Assembly (NCBI RefSeq): GCF_003387375.1
Contig: NZ_QUNG01000003.1
Location: 248,001 to 312,000 of the forward strand
DNA: 64,000 nt
From: Marinomonas pollencensis
GTDB taxonomy: Bacteria > Pseudomonadota > Gammaproteobacteria > Pseudomonadales > Marinomonadaceae
Direction of reading: 5' to 3'
This document shows positions 8,772 to 32,574 of this stretch, piece after piece. The position numbers were made by a program, and so were the translations under genes. The stretch's first letter is position 1. Every line of letters starts with the position of its first letter. The notes under the pieces are model-generated. The model did no database searches. It saw only the letters and a program-made list of their open reading frames with translations, and had not been told where the DNA came from.

Positions 8772-10007
8772 CTAACCTAACTGGTATTTTGGCGCCAATG
8801 CACTAAGTAAGGCACTTTCTTCACCTGCAATCGACTTCGCTAGAAGCTCTGCGGTTGTCGGCCCCAATGTAAAACCTTGATGCCCATGACCAAAATTAAA
8901 CCATAAGCCCTTATGTTTTGGCGCCGCTCCCACCAAGGGCAACATGCCTGGCATACAAGGACGAGTTCCTACCCATTGAGGCTCAATCACCCTGCCTCCT
9001 AGGGGAAGTATGTCACTTAACGCCTTAGCACCACGATCCAACTGACGTGTATCAAGTGGCGCCGTCATTGGTACTAACGCTGCCCCGCTTGTCACCCTAA
9101 GACCAGATGTCATCGCTGAAGCAACCACGCCATTTTCCACATCCATTAACGGCCGCGTTAGCGCCGTGGGTGAGGTAAAATGCCCATGATAACCACGTTT
9201 ATAAATCATCGGAATATAATAACCAAAGCGCTTCAATAGCTCTGGTGACCAAGGCCCAAGTGCGATCACCACCTGCTCGGCACTCAATTCCCCTGCTTCA
9301 GTCATGACTCGCCAGCCGGTTGCGCTTTGCTGCAAACTATTCGCCTCACCAAAAACAAAGCGCCCACCACGAGACACAAACAAGTCCGCGTATGCTTTCG
9401 TCAAATCACCCGGCGATCGACAGCTCCAATTCTGCTCAAAATTAACCACTCCTACCGGATCGGACTGCAACATAGGCTCTTCTACACGGTAATCTTTGCC
9501 CTCAATAATGCGAGATATAACACCATATTCCTTAGTCAGAAAAGTGGCTTTTTGTGTGGCGTCATCAAACGCCTCTGCCGTTCGATAGAACATAGCAAAG
9601 CCATTGCGTTGAATTAAATGCTCTGCACTGGCATCACAAATCCAAACTTCATGATCTGTAGTTGAGCGTGAAGTAAGCTGAGAATAAACATGAGCAATTT
9701 TGCTATGCCGAGCGGCGGAAGATTGTCGAAAGTAAGACAGCAGAGCCGGCGCCATTTGCAGCAATCCATCTAACCGCCAGGTTACATCATTGCCCCTCTC
9801 AAAGGCATAATTCAGCAAGCTCATAAAATGTCTTGGCAAGGCATGAGGCTCTGCCGCTTCAGCTTGAATGATGCCAGCATTGCCATAACTGGTTTCACAG
9901 CCAGCCTCAATACGGTCCACAAGTGTCACGGTATGGCCCGCCGCCTGTAGCGCAAGCGCACTACTAACACCCACCATCCCTGCGCCTAACACCAAAAATT
10001 CAGCCAT
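8772..10007 (-). CDS. DadA-like FAD-dependent D-amino acid dehydrogenase/oxidase
   Basis: A 411-residue DAO-superfamily flavoprotein. The Rossmann FAD site is at residues 5-31 (GAGMVG, acidic end TLVD), with the GNAGII motif near residue 43 and the C-terminal GHGHQGFTLGPTTAELLA, as in DadA and related deaminating dehydrogenases. The substrate is an amino acid or amine but cannot be fixed. It diverges from a YjiH-family carrier, and the shared spacer carries HutC-type operators, so a histidine- or imidazole-related substrate is possible. A GGAG site precedes ATG 10007. It is not the usual dadA-dadX pair. Confidence 0.82.
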   Translation of the reverse strand: MAEFLVLGAGMVGVSSALALQAAGHTVTLVDRIEAGCETSYGNAGIIQAEAAEPHALPRHFMSLLNYAFERGNDVTWRLDGLLQMAPALLSYFRQSSAARHSKIAHVYSQLTSRSTTDHEVWICDASAEHLIQRNGFAMFYRTAEAFDDATQKATFLTKEYGVISRIIEGKDYRVEEPMLQSDPVGVVNFEQNWSCRSPGDLTKAYADLFVSRGGRFVFGEANSLQQSATGWRVMTEAGELSAEQVVIALGPWSPELLKRFGYYIPMIYKRGYHGHFTSPTALTRPLMDVENGVVASAMTSGLRVTSGAALVPMTAPLDTRQLDRGAKALSDILPLGGRVIEPQWVGTRPCMPGMLPLVGAAPKHKGLWFNFGHGHQGFTLGPTTAELLAKSIAGEESALLSALAPKYQLG

Positions 10008-10054
10008 ACCTTCTCCTTAACGATCCATTTAAAACGCTATTAAAAAACACCAAT

Positions 10055-10064
10055 TGTCTATACA
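10055..10064. promoter_or_regulatory. HutC-type operator, one mismatch
   Basis: TGTCTATACA differs from TGTA-N2-TACA by one base and lies 47 bases before the DadA-like start. It overlaps the palindrome ATACATGTAT (10060-10069). Confidence 0.5.
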
Positions 10065-10204
10065 TGTATTAATGATGTATTTTTGATGGTAAATTATTCC
10101 CGCAAGTAAAAAAGAGCGGTTAATAGAGACTATTGCCTCTAAAAACACTAACTCTCTTATTGTCACTTGTTGGTTCAACAATAAAAACAAACATAAATAC
10201 AAGT

Positions 10205-10214
10205 TGTATATACA
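10205..10214. promoter_or_regulatory. HutC-type operator, perfect TGTATATACA
   Basis: An exact copy of the sites in front of hutU and hutF, 56 bases before the YjiH-family start codon. HutC of Pseudomonas recognises TGTA-N2-TACA. Confidence 0.7.
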
Positions 10215-10270
10215 TATTGGCGTAATTCTTGCCTTTACGATAGCAACTAAAACCAAAAGGGACGACCCCC

Positions 10271-11581
10271 ATGAACTCAAGCAACACTCAAACGACAAAC
10301 AAAGGGCTTGCTGCTGCAAAGCTCATCTTATTTAGCGTCATTGGTTTCCTGTTCTTTTTTATGCCGATTACTCTAAACGGTAAAAGTACTATACCACTGG
10401 ATCACATCGTCTCTTGGCTGCGTTCCGATTTCGCTTACAGTATCCAAGTCTATGCCCTGATCGTGATCATCGCTGGGGGAATCTATCCTTTTTGGAAAGG
10501 GACATGGCACACCAGCACCACTAATAAAGTACTGTCCGTATTCAAAGTCCTTGGCGTAATGACTGCGTTAATGGCTTTCTTTTCTGTCGGCCCCGCTTTC
10601 TTATTTGAAAAAGACATGCTGCCCTTCTTATTCTCAAAACTGGTTGTACCGGTTGGATTAATTGTGCCGCTTGGTGCTATTTTCTTAGCGTTTTTAATCA
10701 GTTACGGTCTTTTAGAATTAGCAGGCATCCTTCTACAGCCGATTATGAAGCCCATTTTTAAAACCCCAGGTAAATCCGCCATTGACGCAGTTGCCTCCTT
10801 TGTTGGCAGCTATTCTGTTGGCTTATTAATCACCAACAAGGTGTACAAATCAGGACAGTATTCCGCTAAAGAAGCTGCGATTATTGCGACTGGGTTCTCT
10901 ACTGTGTCTGCTACCTTTATGGTTATCGTTGCGAAAACGTTAGGCTTGATGGAAGTATGGAATCTATTTTTCTGGAGCACCCTACTCATCACCTTTATCG
11001 TGACTGCCATTACCGTTCGCTTGCCACCATTACGCAGTATGAACAATGAAAAAGCCGTTACAGACGTAGACGAAATGAAAGGCTCTCGCATTCAACATGC
11101 ACTAAAAGAGGGCTTATCCGTTGCCTCTCAAGCTGAACCACTAACTAAAAGCATCATCCAAAACACCAAAGACGGCATGTTAATGGCAATGAGTATTTTG
11201 CCTTCCATTATGTCGGTGGGGTTACTTGGCTTGTTGTTAGCTAAATACACACCGATTTTCGATTGGGTTGGTTATCTTTTCTACCCATTTGCATGGGTAT
11301 TGCAGTTACCAGACCCAATGCTGGTTGCCAAAGCCTCTGCAACAGGTCTAGCTGAAATGTTTCTTCCGGCATTGATCGCGGCCAAAAGTATGTTCGTAAC
11401 CAAGTTCGTTATTGGCGTAATTTCCATTTCATCGATTCTCTTTTTCTCGGCGTCTATCCCTTGTATTTTGTCGACTCAAATCCCTATTTCAATCCGACAA
11501 ATACTGGTTGTTTGGTACATACGTACCCTGCTCACCATGGCCATCGCGACCCCTGTTGCCTTCTGGGCTGCCAGCGTATAA
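10271..11581 (+). CDS. YjiH-family transporter with nucleoside-recognition (Gate) domains
   Basis: A 436-residue membrane protein with about 10 predicted membrane segments. Its layout (FFFMPITLNGKSTIPLDHIV near residue 28, ELAGILLQPIMKPIFKTPGKSAIDAVASFVGS, later ATGLAEMFLPALIAAKS) is that of the YjiH family, whose two Gate/Nucleoside_recog domains form a carrier-like core. Family substrates are poorly known. The promoter carries a perfect HutC-type operator and the hut cluster in this window has no hutT, so it is a reasonable candidate for uptake of histidine, urocanate or a related compound. That is inference. A terminator follows. Confidence 0.82.
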   Translation: MNSSNTQTTNKGLAAAKLILFSVIGFLFFFMPITLNGKSTIPLDHIVSWLRSDFAYSIQVYALIVIIAGGIYPFWKGTWHTSTTNKVLSVFKVLGVMTALMAFFSVGPAFLFEKDMLPFLFSKLVVPVGLIVPLGAIFLAFLISYGLLELAGILLQPIMKPIFKTPGKSAIDAVASFVGSYSVGLLITNKVYKSGQYSAKEAAIIATGFSTVSATFMVIVAKTLGLMEVWNLFFWSTLLITFIVTAITVRLPPLRSMNNEKAVTDVDEMKGSRIQHALKEGLSVASQAEPLTKSIIQNTKDGMLMAMSILPSIMSVGLLGLLLAKYTPIFDWVGYLFYPFAWVLQLPDPMLVAKASATGLAEMFLPALIAAKSMFVTKFVIGVISISSILFFSASIPCILSTQIPISIRQILVVWYIRTLLTMAIATPVAFWAASV

Positions 11582-11668: not shown

Positions 11669-12826
11669 TTAACCATACTGCTCGGCAAGCATTCGTAAAC
11701 GGCTTTTAAATTCAGAGCGATCCACATAACAGCCATGTAAGTGTCGACGACCACCTTTGTCTTCAAACTGGTTACGCCCGTGTAGCACACGGCGGTTATC
11801 AAACACGACCATTTGACCCGCTTGCAGTTTAATTTCGATTTTAAAACGCTCGTCACGTAACCGCGCCATCAGGTTGCGATAAGCAAGGTAATAGTCGTGC
11901 ATTACATCAACAGGTAGGTCCAACACTGAAGCTAAGTGTGCATTGTATTTAACTTCAATAATATTGCCGAAATCATCCACATTAATCACGCTATGATGCT
12001 GACGAATATCATGTTCTTTATCATGAAATCGAAACGGCACAACCTGTTCTGACAAGAGGGCGAAGTGATCTGGACATTGCTCACGTAACTCTTCAGCGAC
12101 TCGTAAGCCATCCACAAAAGTCGACTCTCCTCCTTCGCATTCATTGGCGAGGCAATGTAAAAATTGATAGCCAGGTGGTGTCTCTTGATTAGGCAGATCC
12201 GTGTGCAGCGGCAGTGAAATTGAGGTATAGGCTAGGTTAATAGGGGATGCGACAGACACCACATCAAAAGTGGTGCCGAAATTCGTTTGACGTAAATAGT
12301 CCACTCGAGTTGCTAACGTTACCGTGGATTCCACGGTATCAGGCATGCCCTCTACAATCGTCAAGCCAAATTTGTCTAATGCTGCCATCCATTGATAAAG
12401 CGCCTTGTTATCGTCAACCACTGACTGATAATCCGCCCGCGGAATGCGCTGAATAAATGACGAGTCCCAGCTTTGATAACTGCTTGTATGCCTTGCTCTA
12501 TCAGTACGAGAATAATCATGTTGATGCAACCAAGTCTGGCTAAATGAACTCTTGTGCCCTCCTTCGGACCAAATAATGTCCAAATTTGTTTCATTAATCT
12601 GAACCTGCAATGGGTAAATTTCTTCGCTCACACTCAATAAGTCAAAATCCCGTTCTTGGGTATCAGGGTGAAACGCCGTAGAACAATTATCTCGTAACCA
12701 AAGGTAATGATATTGCGACTCTGATCCGTCACTCCACACCACCATTAGACTATGCTCGGCTTGCACCACAGAGGAAATGCTTCTGTTGTTAAGACAGCGA
12801 CCTGAATGGCTAATATTGGTGGTCAT
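11669..12826 (-). CDS. Gamma-butyrobetaine dioxygenase-like 2-oxoglutarate/Fe(II) oxygenase
   Basis: A 385-residue protein with the BBOX layout: an N-terminal DUF971-type zinc-binding domain (about 20-110; YLWLRDNCS, FHPDTQERDFDL) and a TauD/TfdA catalytic domain (about 140-380). The iron triad is visible as LHTDLPN (HxD) and the distal His in NRRVLHGRNQF, with the 2-oxoglutarate Arg in GRRHLHGCYVDR. Family members hydroxylate gamma-butyrobetaine to L-carnitine or act on related trimethylammonium compounds. No carnitine catabolic genes are adjacent, so the substrate is tentative. It diverges from a GcvA-like LysR gene. Confidence 0.85.
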   Translation of the reverse strand: MTTNISHSGRCLNNRSISSVVQAEHSLMVVWSDGSESQYHYLWLRDNCSTAFHPDTQERDFDLLSVSEEIYPLQVQINETNLDIIWSEGGHKSSFSQTWLHQHDYSRTDRARHTSSYQSWDSSFIQRIPRADYQSVVDDNKALYQWMAALDKFGLTIVEGMPDTVESTVTLATRVDYLRQTNFGTTFDVVSVASPINLAYTSISLPLHTDLPNQETPPGYQFLHCLANECEGGESTFVDGLRVAEELREQCPDHFALLSEQVVPFRFHDKEHDIRQHHSVINVDDFGNIIEVKYNAHLASVLDLPVDVMHDYYLAYRNLMARLRDERFKIEIKLQAGQMVVFDNRRVLHGRNQFEDKGGRRHLHGCYVDRSEFKSRLRMLAEQYG

Positions 12827-16968: not shown

Positions 16969-18396
16969 CTATTCAGAAGGGGTATCTGCGCCTTTACGGC
17001 TTTTTAACCTTTTACTCAAAGCTGGTTGCGAAATACCTAACAAGCGGGATGCCACAGATTGATTCCCATTGGCTCGCTTCATTGCCTCATCCACTAGCAA
17101 GTCCGCTGACTTTTGTAAGGTCGGGAGCGGAAAGTCGTCCGGGTATTGATAAAAAGCGTCTGTCATATCAGAAAGTGAAGCCGTATCTGTGTTTTCACAA
17201 GCTCGCTTAAACACAGCCATTGATAGAATACCGCCGCGGTGGCGACTTACTGCATCAAAACACAATGCCTGAAGCTCTCTTACATTGCCTGGGAAAGCGT
17301 AATTTTGCAGCAATACCAGCAGCTCTTTTGGTACAGTGGGTTTACTCCGACCTAACTCTTCCGCTGCTTTTTCAAGAAAGTACTCTAACAATAAAGGAAT
17401 ATCAGCCGGCCTTTTTCTTAATGCTGGCAACTCTACTTGATGAGTGCATAAGCGGTAATATAAGTCTTTTCGAAAGCTCCCATCTGCTTGTTTAGCATCT
17501 AAATTTTGATGGGTAGCCACCACTAAGCGAGCATCAAGACGTTTAGCGGTATCTGAGCCTAACGGGTAATACTCCCCTTCCTGCAGTAAGCGCAGCAATT
17601 TCACCTGTGATGCCAAACTAAGATCGCCTATTTCATCTAAAAATAGCGTTCCACCATTTGCTTGCTCTACCATTCCTGAGCGTGCTTGGTCAGCGCCACT
17701 AAAGGCACCTCGCGCGTGTCCAAATAAGGTATCTGAGAAAAAGCTATCATCTACTCCAGCCACATTGACACTGACTAACGAACCTTTGCGCCCACTCAGG
17801 TCATGTATTGCTTGGGCAATGGCTTCTTTGCCTGTTCCGCTTTCACCCGTAATCAATACATGACGGCTGCTCTCTGCCACAGACTCTAAATATTGAAACA
17901 CCAACTTCATGTTTTTATCTTGCGTCAGTATGTTGGTGAACGCTTCAGGATGTTTTAACGTATCAGAGAAAAACAAGCGGCGCATTTCTTGGTTTTCAAG
18001 GCGCATTTCCTGCATTTCAATTGCACGCTTAATGCCATCGATAAGGCGATTTTCTTCGCTACTTTTAATAAAATAGTCAAACGCTCCCAAACGAATGCAA
18101 TTCATGGCGGTTTCTAATTGATTTAAACCACTCACAATAATAACGTGAATTTCTGGGTGCTTTGCGACTATTTCCGACAACAGAGATTCGCCCGATAAAT
18201 GGGGCATATTAATGTCTAACAGCACCAAGCCTATGCAATGCTTATCTATTAGGTCCATCGCTTGACGGCTGTCATCACAAGTATAAAGATGATTAATGCC
18301 CGCTGCGGTTTCGAGCAACAAACTAAAGCTGCGTAAAAATGAAACCTCGTCATCTATCAATAACACACCGAATGAGGGGGATAAGTTTCCGCTCAT
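16969..18396 (-). CDS. Sigma-54-dependent response regulator, DctD/NtrC family
   Basis: A 475-residue three-domain activator. The receiver domain is at about 8-125, with the phospho-acceptor Asp in LVLLDINMPHLSGE. The AAA+ domain is at about 155-385, with Walker A GESGTGKEA, the sigma-54 contact loop GAFSGA (Ser for the usual Thr of GAFTGA) and Walker B GGTLFLDEIGDL. A Fis-type HTH ends the protein (NQSVASRLLGISQPALSKRL). It overlaps the upstream kinase gene by 4 bases, so they are a cognate pair. A sigma-54 promoter lies before the symporter gene at 22192, its probable target. Confidence 0.93.
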   Translation of the reverse strand: MSGNLSPSFGVLLIDDEVSFLRSFSLLLETAAGINHLYTCDDSRQAMDLIDKHCIGLVLLDINMPHLSGESLLSEIVAKHPEIHVIIVSGLNQLETAMNCIRLGAFDYFIKSSEENRLIDGIKRAIEMQEMRLENQEMRRLFFSDTLKHPEAFTNILTQDKNMKLVFQYLESVAESSRHVLITGESGTGKEAIAQAIHDLSGRKGSLVSVNVAGVDDSFFSDTLFGHARGAFSGADQARSGMVEQANGGTLFLDEIGDLSLASQVKLLRLLQEGEYYPLGSDTAKRLDARLVVATHQNLDAKQADGSFRKDLYYRLCTHQVELPALRKRPADIPLLLEYFLEKAAEELGRSKPTVPKELLVLLQNYAFPGNVRELQALCFDAVSRHRGGILSMAVFKRACENTDTASLSDMTDAFYQYPDDFPLPTLQKSADLLVDEAMKRANGNQSVASRLLGISQPALSKRLKSRKGADTPSE

Positions 18397-20084
18397 ATTG
18401 CTTCGCCTCTAACATGAATGGGTAAGGACAAGATTGCTCGCGTCCCTAGCCCTAAAACTGACTCGTATTCCAGCGTCCCGCCATGCTCTTGAACAATCCC
18501 CGATGACACAGAAAGCCCTAACCCCATTCCACCTTGATCTCGTTTTGTGGTAAAAAATGGATCATTAAGCTTAGAAAGATCACCCGCTTCTATACCTCGC
18601 CCTTGGTCTTGCACCTCTAAACACACCATGCCCCTTACTTCATTAACATAAGAGAAAACCTTAATCCCCTGTTGCGGGTTATTCAGTGCTTGGCATGCAT
18701 TAACAATCAGATTTATCACAACTTGTTCTATTTTTTGCTTATTCCCTAAAAAAGTTGGTAACGCCTTGTTTAATTCTGTACTAAACGCAAAGGTAGATTG
18801 CTTGATCGTATTGTCCACCAGCCGAATAGACACTTCAGCGACTAAGTTAAGATCAACCTGTTCACTCAAGTCCAGTGGACCTTGACGCGCAAAGTCTCGT
18901 AAATCATCAACAATTCGACGAATTCTCTGTGCCCCTGTGGCAATGTCTTCCAACATATACGGAATTTTTTCACGCATCCTGCTGTAAGGAATACCGCCTA
19001 AATTAAAGTCACCATGTTGCTGGTAATGCGCCTCATACACGCCTTCGCTGTCCCGTAGCACGCCTTTTAGTATAGAGATATTCATCGACACTAAACTGCA
19101 CGGGTTGTTAATTTCATGAGCTACTCCTGACACCAACACCCCCAGCGACGCCATTTTATCCGCTTGAAGTAACTGCTTTTGCTGCTGCTTCAGCTCTTCG
19201 GCACGACGATTCACTTCTTTTTTGAGCATACGGTTCCAGACCCCTATACCCCCCAAAGAAATCAATAATAACAGTGAAACAATCGCCGTGGTCTGCCCAA
19301 CTTTTTTCCATGGGTACTGGCTTCTTTCTAATGCGGCAAACCATTTATCGTAGATTTCCTGCTGCCGGCCGGTATTCTTCAAAATCGCGAGGCCTTCACT
19401 AAACTTCGCCAACAAATCTTCATTGCCTTTTTTGACCCCAAACCCATAACGCTGTGCTGCAAAGGTTTGCCCCACTGGTTTAATATTAGACAAAGCAAAC
19501 TCTTGGCCTACATATAAACCCGGAAGATTCGCTACCACCGCATAATCATGCTGCCCCGATGCCAATAAACGCAGCGCATCCGCGTGTGTATCGACGGTGA
19601 ATAAGTTTATCTTGATATCTTGTTCTAGTATTAGGTCGTGCATAATGCCATGCTTCTGCACTATGACTTCTTTGCCTTGTAGATCTTCGATGCTATTAAT
19701 ACTGGTGGGCTGGTCATCTCGCGCGAAGACGGACTGGTTTACTATCGCGTAATGAGGGGAGAAATCATAAAGTTTAGCCCGCTCAGCTGAATAGGCGATT
19801 CCCTGTAGAACATCGATTTCGCCATTTTCAATGGCCTCTCGCATGTCCGACCATTTCCCTAAACGTATTTCAATATTGATGCCCATTACAGCCGCAATTT
19901 CTTTCGTTAGCTCGGTGCCATAGCCAGCAGGATTCCCCTCTTTGTCAATAAACTCATAAGGTGGATAATTAAAATCCCCACCGATAATAACAAGGTTATT
20001 GGTCGAGTCTGTTTGCCCACGAGCACTGGCGTCAAAAGCAGAAAGAAAAAACAAACTGCAAACACACAAACAATATCGAAACAT
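18393..20084 (-). CDS. Histidine kinase with periplasmic SBP_bac_3 sensor domain
   Basis: A 563-residue sensor kinase. A signal peptide (about 1-22) is followed by a full periplasmic solute-binding domain of the amino-acid ABC type (about 30-255; PPYEFIDKEGNPAGYGTEL). Then come one membrane segment (about 265-283), a coiled linker, HisKA with the phospho-His in SGVAHEINNPCSL, and HATPase_c with NACQAL and GMGLGLSVS motifs. Having its own binding domain suggests direct sensing of an amino acid or organic acid. It starts 2 bases after the LysR gene and overlaps the response regulator, so all three are one operon. Confidence 0.92.
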   Translation of the reverse strand: MFRYCLCVCSLFFLSAFDASARGQTDSTNNLVIIGGDFNYPPYEFIDKEGNPAGYGTELTKEIAAVMGINIEIRLGKWSDMREAIENGEIDVLQGIAYSAERAKLYDFSPHYAIVNQSVFARDDQPTSINSIEDLQGKEVIVQKHGIMHDLILEQDIKINLFTVDTHADALRLLASGQHDYAVVANLPGLYVGQEFALSNIKPVGQTFAAQRYGFGVKKGNEDLLAKFSEGLAILKNTGRQQEIYDKWFAALERSQYPWKKVGQTTAIVSLLLLISLGGIGVWNRMLKKEVNRRAEELKQQQKQLLQADKMASLGVLVSGVAHEINNPCSLVSMNISILKGVLRDSEGVYEAHYQQHGDFNLGGIPYSRMREKIPYMLEDIATGAQRIRRIVDDLRDFARQGPLDLSEQVDLNLVAEVSIRLVDNTIKQSTFAFSTELNKALPTFLGNKQKIEQVVINLIVNACQALNNPQQGIKVFSYVNEVRGMVCLEVQDQGRGIEAGDLSKLNDPFFTTKRDQGGMGLGLSVSSGIVQEHGGTLEYESVLGLGTRAILSLPIHVRGEAI

Positions 20085-22191: not shown

Positions 22192-23472
22192 ATGACAAAT
22201 AACACAGTAGGCCAAAAGCAACCCGGCTTTTGGGGCAAAATGCCATTATGGCAAAAGATCTTTATCGGCATGGGATTGGGTGTCTTAGCTGGGGTTTTCC
22301 TAGGGCCAGATGCTGAGTTTCTAAAACCGATCGGAACCTTGTTCGTAAACGCGATCAAGATGCTGATTGTGCCACTTATTTTCTGTTCTCTCGTGGTCGG
22401 TGTGACCTCGATGGAAGACAGCCGCAAAATGGGGCGCATTGGCGCTAAATCCGTTGTTCTTTATTTAGGAACAACCGCTGTCGCTATTACCATCGGTCTA
22501 GTTTTCGGTTCTGTTTTTGCTCCTGGTATGGGTCTAAACATGGTTGCCAACGAAACGTCAACCGTTGTAAAAGAAGCGCCTACTCTAGTACAAACCTTCT
22601 TAAACCTTATTCCTAAAAACCCAGTTAATGCATTAGCAGCCGGCAACATCTTACAAATCATTGTCTTCGCATTGGGCTTAGGTATCGCACTTAACTTGTG
22701 TGGCGAAAAAGCAAAACCTGCTGTTGCTGTTTTTGAAAGCCTTGCAGAAGCTATGTACAAGCTAACTGAACTGGTTATGAAACTAGCGCCATACGGCGTA
22801 TTCGGTTTAATGGCTTGGGTTTCAGGCAAATACGGTATCGAAGTACTACTACCATTAATCAAAGTAATCGCGGTCGTTTACTTAGGTTGTGTGGTTCACG
22901 TTATTGTCGTTTATGCAGGCTTAATCGGTACTATCGGACGTCTTAACCCAGTACGTTACTTAAAAGCTTTGCTAAACCCTGCTGCCGTTGCTTTTACGAC
23001 AACTAGTAGCTCCGGCACCTTGCCTGCGACAATCAAAGCATCACGTGAAGAACTTGGTGTATCAAAAGGCGTTGCCAGCTTCGTATTGCCATTGGGTGCG
23101 ACCATCAACATGGATGGCACCGCGTTATACCAAGGTGTGTGTGCTCTTTTCATCGCACAAGCTTTTGGTATCGATCTAGACATGGCTGATTACCTACTTA
23201 TCATCATGACGTCTACTCTGGCTTCTATTGGTACTGCTGGCGTTCCTGGCGCGGGCTTGATCATGCTGTCATTGGTACTTACTACTGTTGGCCTACCTAT
23301 TGAAGGTCTAGCGATTGTTGCCGGTATCGACCGTATCCTAGACATGGCACGAACCAGCGTAAACGTATGTGGTGACTTGATGGTGTCTGCGCTTGTTGGT
23401 AAGAGTGAAAACGAGCTAGATGAGTCTATCTACAACAAAGAAGGCTACAGCAAAGAAACAAATGTGGCATAA
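22192..23472 (+). CDS. Dicarboxylate/amino acid:cation symporter (DAACS, GltP/DctA-like)
   Basis: A 426-residue inner-membrane symporter. The re-entrant serine loop TTTSSSGTLPATI and the transport-core motif GATINMDGTALYQG are both intact. It should take up glutamate, aspartate or C4-dicarboxylates with protons or sodium. It lies behind a full sigma-54 promoter and next to a racemase-family gene, in front of a divergent LysR/kinase/response-regulator operon. By analogy with DctBD control of dctA, that system probably activates it when the ligand is present. A terminator follows. Confidence 0.93.
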   Translation: MTNNTVGQKQPGFWGKMPLWQKIFIGMGLGVLAGVFLGPDAEFLKPIGTLFVNAIKMLIVPLIFCSLVVGVTSMEDSRKMGRIGAKSVVLYLGTTAVAITIGLVFGSVFAPGMGLNMVANETSTVVKEAPTLVQTFLNLIPKNPVNALAAGNILQIIVFALGLGIALNLCGEKAKPAVAVFESLAEAMYKLTELVMKLAPYGVFGLMAWVSGKYGIEVLLPLIKVIAVVYLGCVVHVIVVYAGLIGTIGRLNPVRYLKALLNPAAVAFTTTSSSGTLPATIKASREELGVSKGVASFVLPLGATINMDGTALYQGVCALFIAQAFGIDLDMADYLLIIMTSTLASIGTAGVPGAGLIMLSLVLTTVGLPIEGLAIVAGIDRILDMARTSVNVCGDLMVSALVGKSENELDESIYNKEGYSKETNVA

Positions 23473-27709: not shown

Positions 27710-29398
27710 TTATTTACCTGTGATCATAGGCAGGTTAAGACCTTGTTCTTTCGCACAATCGATGGCGATATCATAACCCGCATCCGCGTGGCGCATCACA
27801 CCTGTTGCTGGATCATTATGAAGTACACGGGCAATACGCTCAGCCGCGTCATCACTGCCATCACACACAATCACCATACCGGAGTGCTGTGAAAAGCCCA
27901 TGCCAACGCCACCACCATGGTGCAAAGAGACCCAAGTTGCGCCAGACGCTGTGTTCAGCAAGGCGTTTAATAACGGCCAATCCGATACCGCATCGGACCC
28001 GTCTTGCATGCCTTCTGTTTCACGATTTGGACTCGCTACCGAGCCTGAATCTAGATGGTCACGACCAATCACGATGGGAGCCGACAATTCACCGCTGCGC
28101 ACCATTTCGTTAAACGCCAGACCAAGCTTGGCGCGCTGGCCTAGCCCTACCCAACAAATACGCGCTGGCAAACCTTGGAACTGAATACGCTCACGAGCCA
28201 TGTCTAACCAATGATGCAAGTGTTCATCGTCGGCTATCAGCTCTTTTACCTTAGCGTCGGTTTTATAAATATCTTCAGGGTCACCAGATAGCGCCGCCCA
28301 GCGGAATGGCCCAATGCCACGACAGAACAATGGACGAATATACGCTGGCACAAAACCTGGGAAATCAAAGGCGTTTTCCACCCCTTCTTCCATCGCCATC
28401 TGACGAATATTGTTACCATAATCAAATGTTGGCACGCCCATTTTCTGGAAGTCCAACATGGCTTGTACATGCACCGCCATGGTTTGCTTCGCCGCGGTGA
28501 CTACTTCAGCTGGATGCGTTAGGGATTTTTCACGGTACTCTTCCCAGCTCATGCCAGTTGGCAAATAACCATTTAATGGATCGTGTGCCGATGTTTGGTC
28601 AGTCACCATATCTGGACGAACACCACGTTTCACCATTTCTGGCAAGATGTCTGCTGCGTTGCCACATAGAGCAATAGAAACCGCTTTGCCTTCTTCTGTG
28701 TATTTTTTTATGCGTGCTAGCGCGTCGTCTAGGTCGGCTGCTTGCTCATCCACATAACGGGTACGTAGACGGAAATCGATGCGGCTTTGCTGGCATTCAA
28801 TATTCAAAGAACAAGCGCCCGCTAACGTCGCCGCCAAAGGCTGTGCCCCACCCATGCCACCAAGACCTGCGGTTAGCACCCAGCGACCCGTTAGGTTGCC
28901 ATCGTAATGCTGGCGACCTGCTTCAACGAAGGTTTCGTAAGTACCTTGCACTATGCCTTGGCTACCAATGTAAATCCAAGAACCTGCCGTCATTTGGCCG
29001 TACATAGCCAAACCTTTGGCGTCTAGTTCGTTGAAGTGCTCCCAATTCGCCCAATGTGGCACTAGATTAGAGTTAGCGATTAACACGCGAGGCGCATTGC
29101 TGTGTGTTTTAAACACGCCCACTGGCTTACCAGACTGAACCATTAAGGTTTCATCATCTTCAAGATTCGTAAGGGACTCAACGATTTTGTCGTAACTTTC
29201 CCAATCACGAGCAGCACGACCAATACCACCATACACCACTAATTCTTCTGGGTTTTCCGCAACATCTGGATCTAAGTTGTTCATCAGCATGCGCATTGGC
29301 GCTTCGGTCAACCACGATTTTGCGGTCAATGTTGTCCCTGTTGCCGCTTTAACGACACCGGCGCGATAGCGTTTTTGAGCAAGTGTTTGTTTCGTCAT
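27710..29398 (-). CDS. hutU: Urocanate hydratase
   Basis: A urocanase of about 562 residues with tightly bound NAD. The N-terminal [26 protein letters not shown] near residue 175 and the C-terminal [19 protein letters not shown] are diagnostic. It converts urocanate to 4-imidazolone-5-propanoate. A GTG at 29407 is in frame, but ATG 29398 has AAGGG 8 bases upstream and is preferred. It is the first gene of the operon. Its promoter region shares a 302-base spacer with hutF that holds three HutC-type sites. Confidence 0.96.
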
Positions 29399-29455: not shown

Positions 29456-29465
29456 TGTATATACA
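29456..29465. promoter_or_regulatory. HutC operator in front of hutU
   Basis: A perfect TGTATATACA 57 bases before the hutU start, in the divergent hutU/hutF promoter region. Confidence 0.75.
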
Positions 29466-29639: not shown

Positions 29640-29649
29640 TGTATATACA
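29640..29649. promoter_or_regulatory. HutC operator in front of hutF
   Basis: A perfect TGTATATACA 51 bases before the hutF start codon. Confidence 0.75.
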
Positions 29650-31741: not shown

Positions 31742-32497
31742 CTAACGGCCAAAATGACCAAATAGCTGAAAGCGCGATCCCGGATGCAGCAAACGAGCAG
31801 CGGTAATAATGTCATCACCCGCCCAAGTACGGCGTTTGATTTGCAAACAGGGTTCGCTGTCTGCTATTTGCAAACGCTGGCATTCCTCGGCAGAAGGCAA
31901 AACCGCTTCAACCAAGTGTTCACCTTCTGTCATCGGCGCCGTTGTCATGAGATATTCATAAGGAGTATGTTTGGAAAAATCTTGTTGATCGTAATCCGGC
32001 GCTCGGCTTGCATTGACGATACGCTCTTCTATTTGGATCGGCGAGTCGTCTTCATAATGCACCACCACAGAACGGAAAATACTGTGATTGGTACGCACCC
32101 CTAACATCATCGCCTCTTCAACCGTGGCTTTAGCAGACTCAAGGATCAGCAAGTCTGCCCTATGCTGATGACCGCGAGCGGTGATTTCTTCAGCAATATT
32201 ATGCACTTCGAAGAGCGCCGAATGAGACTTCTTCTCTGCCACAAAGGTGCCAAGACCTTGATGGCGAACCAGCAAGCCTTCCACGGTAAGTTCACGCAAG
32301 GCGCGGTTGACCGTCATGCGGCTCACGCCAAGAGATTTAACAATTTCCGCTTCGGATGGCACCCGTTGATTGGCCTGCCACTCACCCGCTGAGATTTTTT
32401 GGCTAATCGCTTGCTTTAGCTTCGAGTAAATAGGCTGAGGCACGTCTGGCAAGCCATCAAATAAATGCTCAAGCATGGTTACGGTCTTGTCTGACAA
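31742..32497 (-). CDS. hutC: Histidine utilization repressor HutC (GntR family)
   Basis: A 251-residue GntR/HutC-type repressor: winged HTH at about 20-88 (IYSKLKQAISQKI, VPSEAEIVKSLGVSRMTVNRALRELT) and a UTRA effector domain at about 105-245. It represses hut genes and is released by urocanate. The start is a TTG at 32497 with AGGA 6 bases before it; the ATG at 32476 has no ribosome-binding site. A one-mismatch HutC site (32565-32574) lies just upstream, fitting autoregulation. A b-type cytochrome gene ends 83 bases upstream on the same strand. Confidence 0.93.
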   Translation of the reverse strand: MSDKTVTMLEHLFDGLPDVPQPIYSKLKQAISQKISAGEWQANQRVPSEAEIVKSLGVSRMTVNRALRELTVEGLLVRHQGLGTFVAEKKSHSALFEVHNIAEEITARGHQHRADLLILESAKATVEEAMMLGVRTNHSIFRSVVVHYEDDSPIQIEERIVNASRAPDYDQQDFSKHTPYEYLMTTAPMTEGEHLVEAVLPSAEECQRLQIADSEPCLQIKRRTWAGDDIITAARLLHPGSRFQLFGHFGR

Positions 32498-32564: not shown

Positions 32565-32574
32565 TGTATAGACA
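32565..32574. promoter_or_regulatory. HutC-type operator in front of hutC
   Basis: TGTATAGACA differs by one base from TGTA-N2-TACA and lies 67 bases before the hutC TTG start, between hutC and the upstream cytochrome gene. Confidence 0.5.

Follow-up and report, generated by a model that had tools for sequence, protein, structure and literature searches.

A predicted HutC and sigma-54 promoter module of yjiH in Marinomonas, next to a DadA-like gene that is probably a bystander

The intergenic region between a DadA-like oxidoreductase gene and the divergent yjiH gene of Marinomonas pollencensis contains two sequences that resemble the operator of HutC, the repressor of the hut genes. One faces each gene, and the original prediction was that HutC controls both, the pair perhaps supplying uptake and an accessory amino acid oxidation. 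Does each operator serve the gene that it faces, or do the two belong to only one of them? The question was addressed using the whole 64,000-nucleotide stretch of which positions 10,055 to 10,214 are given above (hereafter the window), the rest of its genome, and a set of 48 Marinomonas genomes. The elements in question are the following.

8772 to 10007, minus strand: gene of a DadA-like FAD oxidoreductase (DAO, PF01266), probably no dedicated HutC target
10055 to 10064, plus strand: distal HutC-like operator, TGTCTATACA, one mismatch, 150 bp upstream of the proximal one
10205 to 10214, plus strand: proximal predicted HutC operator, TGTATATACA, with 3 bases between it and the TGG of a sigma-54-type -24 element
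10271 to 11581, plus strand: yjiH, encoding a Gate-domain membrane protein (Pfam PF07670), predicted to be a likely histidine or urocanate importer

A check of the sequence confirmed both sites at these positions, as well as the claim that identical copies of TGTATATACA precede hutU and hutF. The distal site lies 47 bases from the ATG of the DadA-like gene (10007) and the proximal site 56 bases from that of yjiH (10271). These distances had been said to match the 51 to 67 bases found in the hut genes, and a recount gave the same range: hutF has 51 bases, hutC 67 and hutU 57, the last counted to the ATG at 29398 (its mechanical open reading frame begins at GTG 29407). The distal site does therefore face the DadA-like gene as far as position goes; on control of that gene, position says no more. 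The hut elements used as references are listed below.

29456 to 29465, minus strand: predicted HutC operator of hutU, exact
29640 to 29649, plus strand: predicted HutC operator of hutF, exact
31742 to 32497, minus strand: hutC, GntR/UTRA repressor (TIGR02018, 300 bits against a cut-off of 220; UTRA domain)
32565 to 32574, minus strand: HutC-like site upstream of hutC, reading TGTCTATACA on the strand of that gene, with likely autoregulation

The hut operons of the window comprise hutG, hutI, hutH, hutU, hutF, a HutD-like gene (named from its position, a Ves model being its sole match and below cut-off) and hutC. The earlier statement that the hut cluster lacks a transporter holds for these operons, none of which contains one, but the gene of an SDF-family symporter (22192-23472) adjoins hutG. 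HutC orthologs were found in 43 of the 48 genomes. The 400 bp before hutU include an exact site in 35 of the 36 loci counted (six stretches without hutU and genome G044, which has HutC, being left out), and of the 30 hutC loci examined, among 43 orthologs, 17 have a site at -74 to -94. The operator of hutC is asymmetric (window and loci L048-L069): the window species shares TGTCTATACA with some of its relatives, and a second group has TGTATAGACA; by eye, the distal yjiH operator, where asymmetric, reads the same way as the hutC operator of the same genome.

Taken by themselves, the sites of the window are in modest excess: three TGTA-N2-TACA sites against 0.83 expected, a number reached by 6 of 100 shuffles, and six sites with no more than one mismatch where 1.9 are expected, reached by one shuffle in 100. 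The whole genome contains five exact sites, and the intergenic ones are those of hutU, hutF and yjiH, all within the window. The remaining two lie inside mechanical open reading frames, in one case right at the beginning of the frame, and were set aside for that location. Sites with at most one mismatch number 70 in the genome, compared to 48 in the control. TGTATAGACA is found at six places, namely the distal yjiH site, one before hutC, one intergenic position (C5) and three positions inside open reading frames.

Conservation is far more telling. A YjiH match is encoded by 28 of the 48 genomes, and 23 of them have a close ortholog (72-100% identity), the weak paralogs of about 25-35% identity in five genomes, and those present as second copies in G011 and G022, being left out of the counts. 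The proximal site is present before all 23 close orthologs, exact in 22 and TGTATATACG in G003, and in all 23 a distal site with at most one mismatch is located 97 to 221 bp upstream of the proximal one, whereas shuffling leads one to expect about 0.012 such sites per genome. Phylogenetic footprinting, which the original prediction had proposed as a check, hence supports both sites at yjiH, and because both are kept in 23 of 23 promoters they are not chance occurrences. None of the seven weak paralog loci contains a site with at most one mismatch between 0 and -400. All 23 genomes with a close yjiH encode HutC, and the five without a HutC ortholog have no close yjiH either, which amounts to a weak association. 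A further element of the yjiH promoter, expected 0.1 times by shuffling, is equally constant; it might be a bend or a protein site.

10180 to 10190, plus strand: A-rich element AAYAAMAAYAA, between the enhancer region and the promoter, kept in 23 of 23 yjiH promoters

Directly after the proximal operator stands an element that the original prediction, in its reading of the promoter, had overlooked.

10218 to 10232, plus strand: sigma-54-type -24/-12 promoter element of yjiH, TGG-N8-TTGC, in 23 of 23 close orthologs; RpoN is encoded

This element follows the proximal site by three bases (15 in G003), and its GG and GC at -24/-12, with ten bases between them, are conserved in all 23 genomes, as befits a predicted sigma-54 promoter. 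The composite pattern of TGTATATACR followed at a variable gap by TGG-N8-TTGC occurs in the same 23 of 48 genomes that have a close yjiH ortholog; it is absent from the other 25 and was found 0 times in the control. Each yjiH genome has it once, apart from one further match in G018 and one in G031 (L130 and L139), both elsewhere in the genome, away from yjiH. Marinomonas hutU promoters have no sigma-54 element at the operator (36 loci, two stray matches), and the importer therefore appears to be wired differently from the hut enzymes.

In the region between the two operators, 15 of the 23 genomes, many of them close relatives, contain an NtrC-type motif, GCRC-N7-GYGC, for which 0.01 occurrences are expected, and five more genomes have 7 of its 8 fixed positions. 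The motif cannot be made out in the window genome or in G007, its sister, where 5 of 8 is the top score (p about 0.8). The motif resembles the NtrC consensus, GCACCA-N3-TGGTGC, as it appears in the available passages of PMC12977541, and the window genome encodes NtrC as well as RpoN. The regions upstream of glnA, used as a yardstick, gave an NtrC-type motif in 6 of the 30 loci examined out of 48 genomes (0.08 expected; for one locus only 167 bp upstream were covered) and a strict sigma-54 match in none of the 30, which makes glnA a weak yardstick for the NtrC reading. The window also encodes, at 16969-20084, an SBP_bac_3 sensor kinase and a sigma-54 response regulator. An Asp/Glu racemase, an SDF symporter and a LysR gene adjoin them, and the whole group may form a system for acidic amino acids. 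This sensor-regulator pair was considered as a candidate activator of yjiH and set aside; most relatives have yjiH elsewhere.

What does YjiH transport? No solved structure matching it by sequence was found, and the closest named record is the 96% identical YjiH of Marinomonas sp. KMM3893. Gene context is more informative. YjiH relatives are encoded between hutU and hutH in Moraxella lacunata (52% identity) and in G196 (53%), and directly before hutU and hutI in Kurthia zopfii (57%). The Moraxella and Kurthia loci come from a scan of genome contigs whose other eight loci outside the genus are 23-38% identical; a class-wide sample of 369 genomes yielded only one further YjiH relative at E <=1e-90. 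Within the genus, yjiH of G003 is located at the end of the hut cluster. Since relatives adjoin hut genes in three genomes, YjiH likely imports histidine or urocanate, a substrate assigned from gene context. The Kurthia zopfii row of yjiH, hutU and hutI (L099 6001-10222) may also reflect transfer between distant phyla.

With a TGTA-N2-TACA operator near the promoter and a HutC ortholog in the genome, yjiH has the features of a HutC regulon member, and its control by HutC via two sites upstream of a sigma-54 promoter is very likely on comparative grounds. To which gene the distal site belongs is best judged from the gene upstream. In 18 of the 23 genomes that gene is co-directional with yjiH and encodes a QTMAN-type glycosyltransferase (Pfam names the family for one protein, and the others were assigned by similarity to it), its stop codon falling 0-286 bp before the distal site in 16 genomes and 7 bp inside it in two (G013 and G032). 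The upstream gene is divergent in the other genomes: exonuclease-like in G011 and G022, nitronate-monooxygenase-like in G003, and DadA-like in the window genome and G007. On the YjiH tree each of these four contexts makes up a group of its own. Because the distal site stays with yjiH in all four, and because the upstream gene is co-directional in 18 of 23 genomes, the site pair is, by this comparison, a property of yjiH and would constitute a single regulatory module, not a divergent operator pair.

I propose that yjiH would be read from the sigma-54 promoter. Without urocanate, HutC would occupy the proximal operator, adjacent to the -24 box, and would keep sigma-54 polymerase away; such an occlusion is the simplest reading because the position of the proximal site matches that at hutU of P. 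aeruginosa. The distal operator would add to this repression, most likely through cooperative HutC binding across the enhancer region, perhaps with looping. Once urocanate builds up, HutC would leave, and a sigma-54 activator, for which NtrC is the best candidate, would switch the importer on; uptake of histidine or urocanate would then respond to the supply of substrate as well as to the need for nitrogen. The DadA-like gene would be a neighbour, and any effect of HutC on it would be a by-product of the location of yjiH. I give this model, a single HutC/sigma-54 module of yjiH with the DadA-like gene as a bystander, a probability of about 0.8.

The competing possibility that two operators serve two divergent genes, HutC controlling both the importer and an accessory amino acid oxidase, is unlikely. 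The 47 bases between the distal site and the DadA-like start are a plausible distance for repression, the site is kept in the window species and in G007, and the upstream gene is divergent in G003, G011 and G022 as well, though it is a different gene there. Against this, 21 genomes keep the distal site before yjiH with some other gene upstream, and the DadA-like gene lacks the site once it is away from yjiH. Its orthologs, counted at >=54% identity, number 28, of which two adjoin yjiH; none of the 26 located elsewhere has a site with at most one mismatch (ten loci covered over 500 bp, 16 over about 600 bp, 417 bp for G038), and sites with two mismatches were found before three of them, all among the sixteen loci of about 600 bp and none among the ten of 500 bp. 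The ortholog of G026 (C8:33501-34723) is split between two frames and is probably a broken gene. Genome G012 bears on the point from another side, its dadA lying next to a gene that in the window genome is the following.

11669 to 12826, minus strand: gamma-butyrobetaine-dioxygenase-like gene; in G012 it shares the strand of dadA and lies 162 bp upstream of it

Between these two genes G012 has a decayed 84-bp remnant of the 3' end of yjiH (L111 2819-2901), and because of this remnant I conclude from the sequence that yjiH was once present beside dadA in G012 and was later lost; dadA of G012 has no site with up to two mismatches over 500 bp. A scan of 9950-10300 for sigma-70 promoters found none, which carries little weight since 0.8 is the chance expectation. 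The DadA-like protein matched 13 NCBIfam models, D-amino acid dehydrogenase included, but reached the cut-off of none, and it resembles solved glycine oxidases only loosely. The DadA-like gene is probably not a dedicated HutC target, such a role being unsupported as a conserved feature, and HutC may affect it, here and in the sister species, by mere proximity. Of the control originally proposed for the pair, the part concerning yjiH is supported by the conserved site pair, the exact site before hutU and the hut-adjacent relatives, and the part concerning the DadA-like gene is not supported.

The remaining alternatives concern how the sites are used, and by what. In one version of the yjiH module, HutC bridges the operators that flank the enhancer, thereby both blocking polymerase and locking the nitrogen-regulated enhancer in a DNA loop; the self-contained module would have remained with the importer in four contexts, and an oxidase gene unrelated to it would have come under the influence of HutC in a single small clade. 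Looping is suggested by the location of the distal operator beyond the enhancer-like motif. It finds no firm backing in a helical phasing of the distances between the operators: with 10.5 bp per turn, p is 0.004 for all 23 genomes and 0.17 for the 13 distinct spacings, and at 10.25 bp the latter give an uncorrected p of 0.03. I consider this version, taken as a whole, rather doubtful. The distal operator could instead act without a loop, as an auxiliary site that raises the local concentration of HutC or allows oligomers to hinder the activator. The variable spacing (97 to 221 bp) would be no obstacle to such a role, and the accessible text of PMC12977541 describes up to tetramers of P. aeruginosa HutC at hutU and binding of P. 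fluorescens HutC to NtrC-type sites also. Conversely, a distant partner site in 23 of 23 genomes, beyond the enhancer-like motif where that motif is seen, is what bridging leads one to expect, and the auxiliary role is a possibility to be taken seriously that nevertheless falls short of even odds. Operators of the GntR/HutC family can look alike, and the genome encodes a second UTRA protein, so another regulator might use the sites. This is very improbable: the second UTRA protein is below every NCBIfam cut-off, and the 7 kb surrounding its gene contain no site with at most one mismatch, while the yjiH sites equal those of hutU and hutF and yjiH of G003 sits with the hut genes. As to chance matches to an AT-rich palindrome, the modest counts in the window and genome would be compatible with them, but the conservation of both sites together with the composite operator and sigma-54 pattern makes them barely conceivable.

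The single HutC/sigma-54 module of yjiH, which I retain, would provide this Marinomonas, whose hut operons have no importer, with a likely histidine or urocanate importer under a precise and testable promoter. It could also serve as a simple model of a sigma-54 promoter where control by a repressor is joined to control by a distant activator. A more general point is that a site "facing" a gene can mislead, as comparison across contexts may assign it to the other gene. I take COG3314 to be the YjiH family, and a literature search for HutC together with YjiH found no paper. A search on COG3314, YjiH and histidine found COG3314 only in Leyn et al. 2016 (PMC5343134), where, in the passages available, a COG3314 transmembrane protein potentially involved in histidine uptake is a predicted HutC target in Aeromonas, Psychromonas and Marinomonas. 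HutC control of this protein in Marinomonas has thus already been predicted at the regulon level, for the same genus, repressor and kind of transporter and with the same guess at histidine uptake. Beyond what those passages contain, the present analysis adds the sigma-54 promoter, the paired operators, the NtrC-like enhancer and the oxidase gene. Its main contributions are this promoter, a module of two operators that goes with yjiH through four contexts, and an account of why one operator faces an oxidase gene.

The closest parallel in design is hutU of Pseudomonas. According to the parts of the source at hand, HutC of P. aeruginosa covers a 51-bp region that overlaps the sigma-54 site of hutU and is released by urocanate (PMC12977541), and in P. 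aeruginosa and P. fluorescens repression of hutU by HutC is combined with activation by NtrC and CbrB (PMC12977541, PMC8871633, as far as the excerpts go). The yjiH promoter shares with P. aeruginosa hutU, as described there (PMC12977541), a TGTA-N2-TACA operator at the sigma-54 site, overlapping it in P. aeruginosa, whereas the hutU promoters of Marinomonas, in the 36 loci, have no sigma-54 element at the operator. Unlike in Pseudomonas hutU, the gene here encodes a YjiH-type importer and a second operator lies 97-221 bp upstream.

The Gate domain of YjiH also sets it apart from the importers HutT, HutXWV and HisT, to whose families it is not known to be related. In the material available on those importers, from Pseudomonas and other bacteria, their genes likewise serve histidine or urocanate uptake under hut control (PMC5343134, PMC8871633), the part that I propose for yjiH in Marinomonas.
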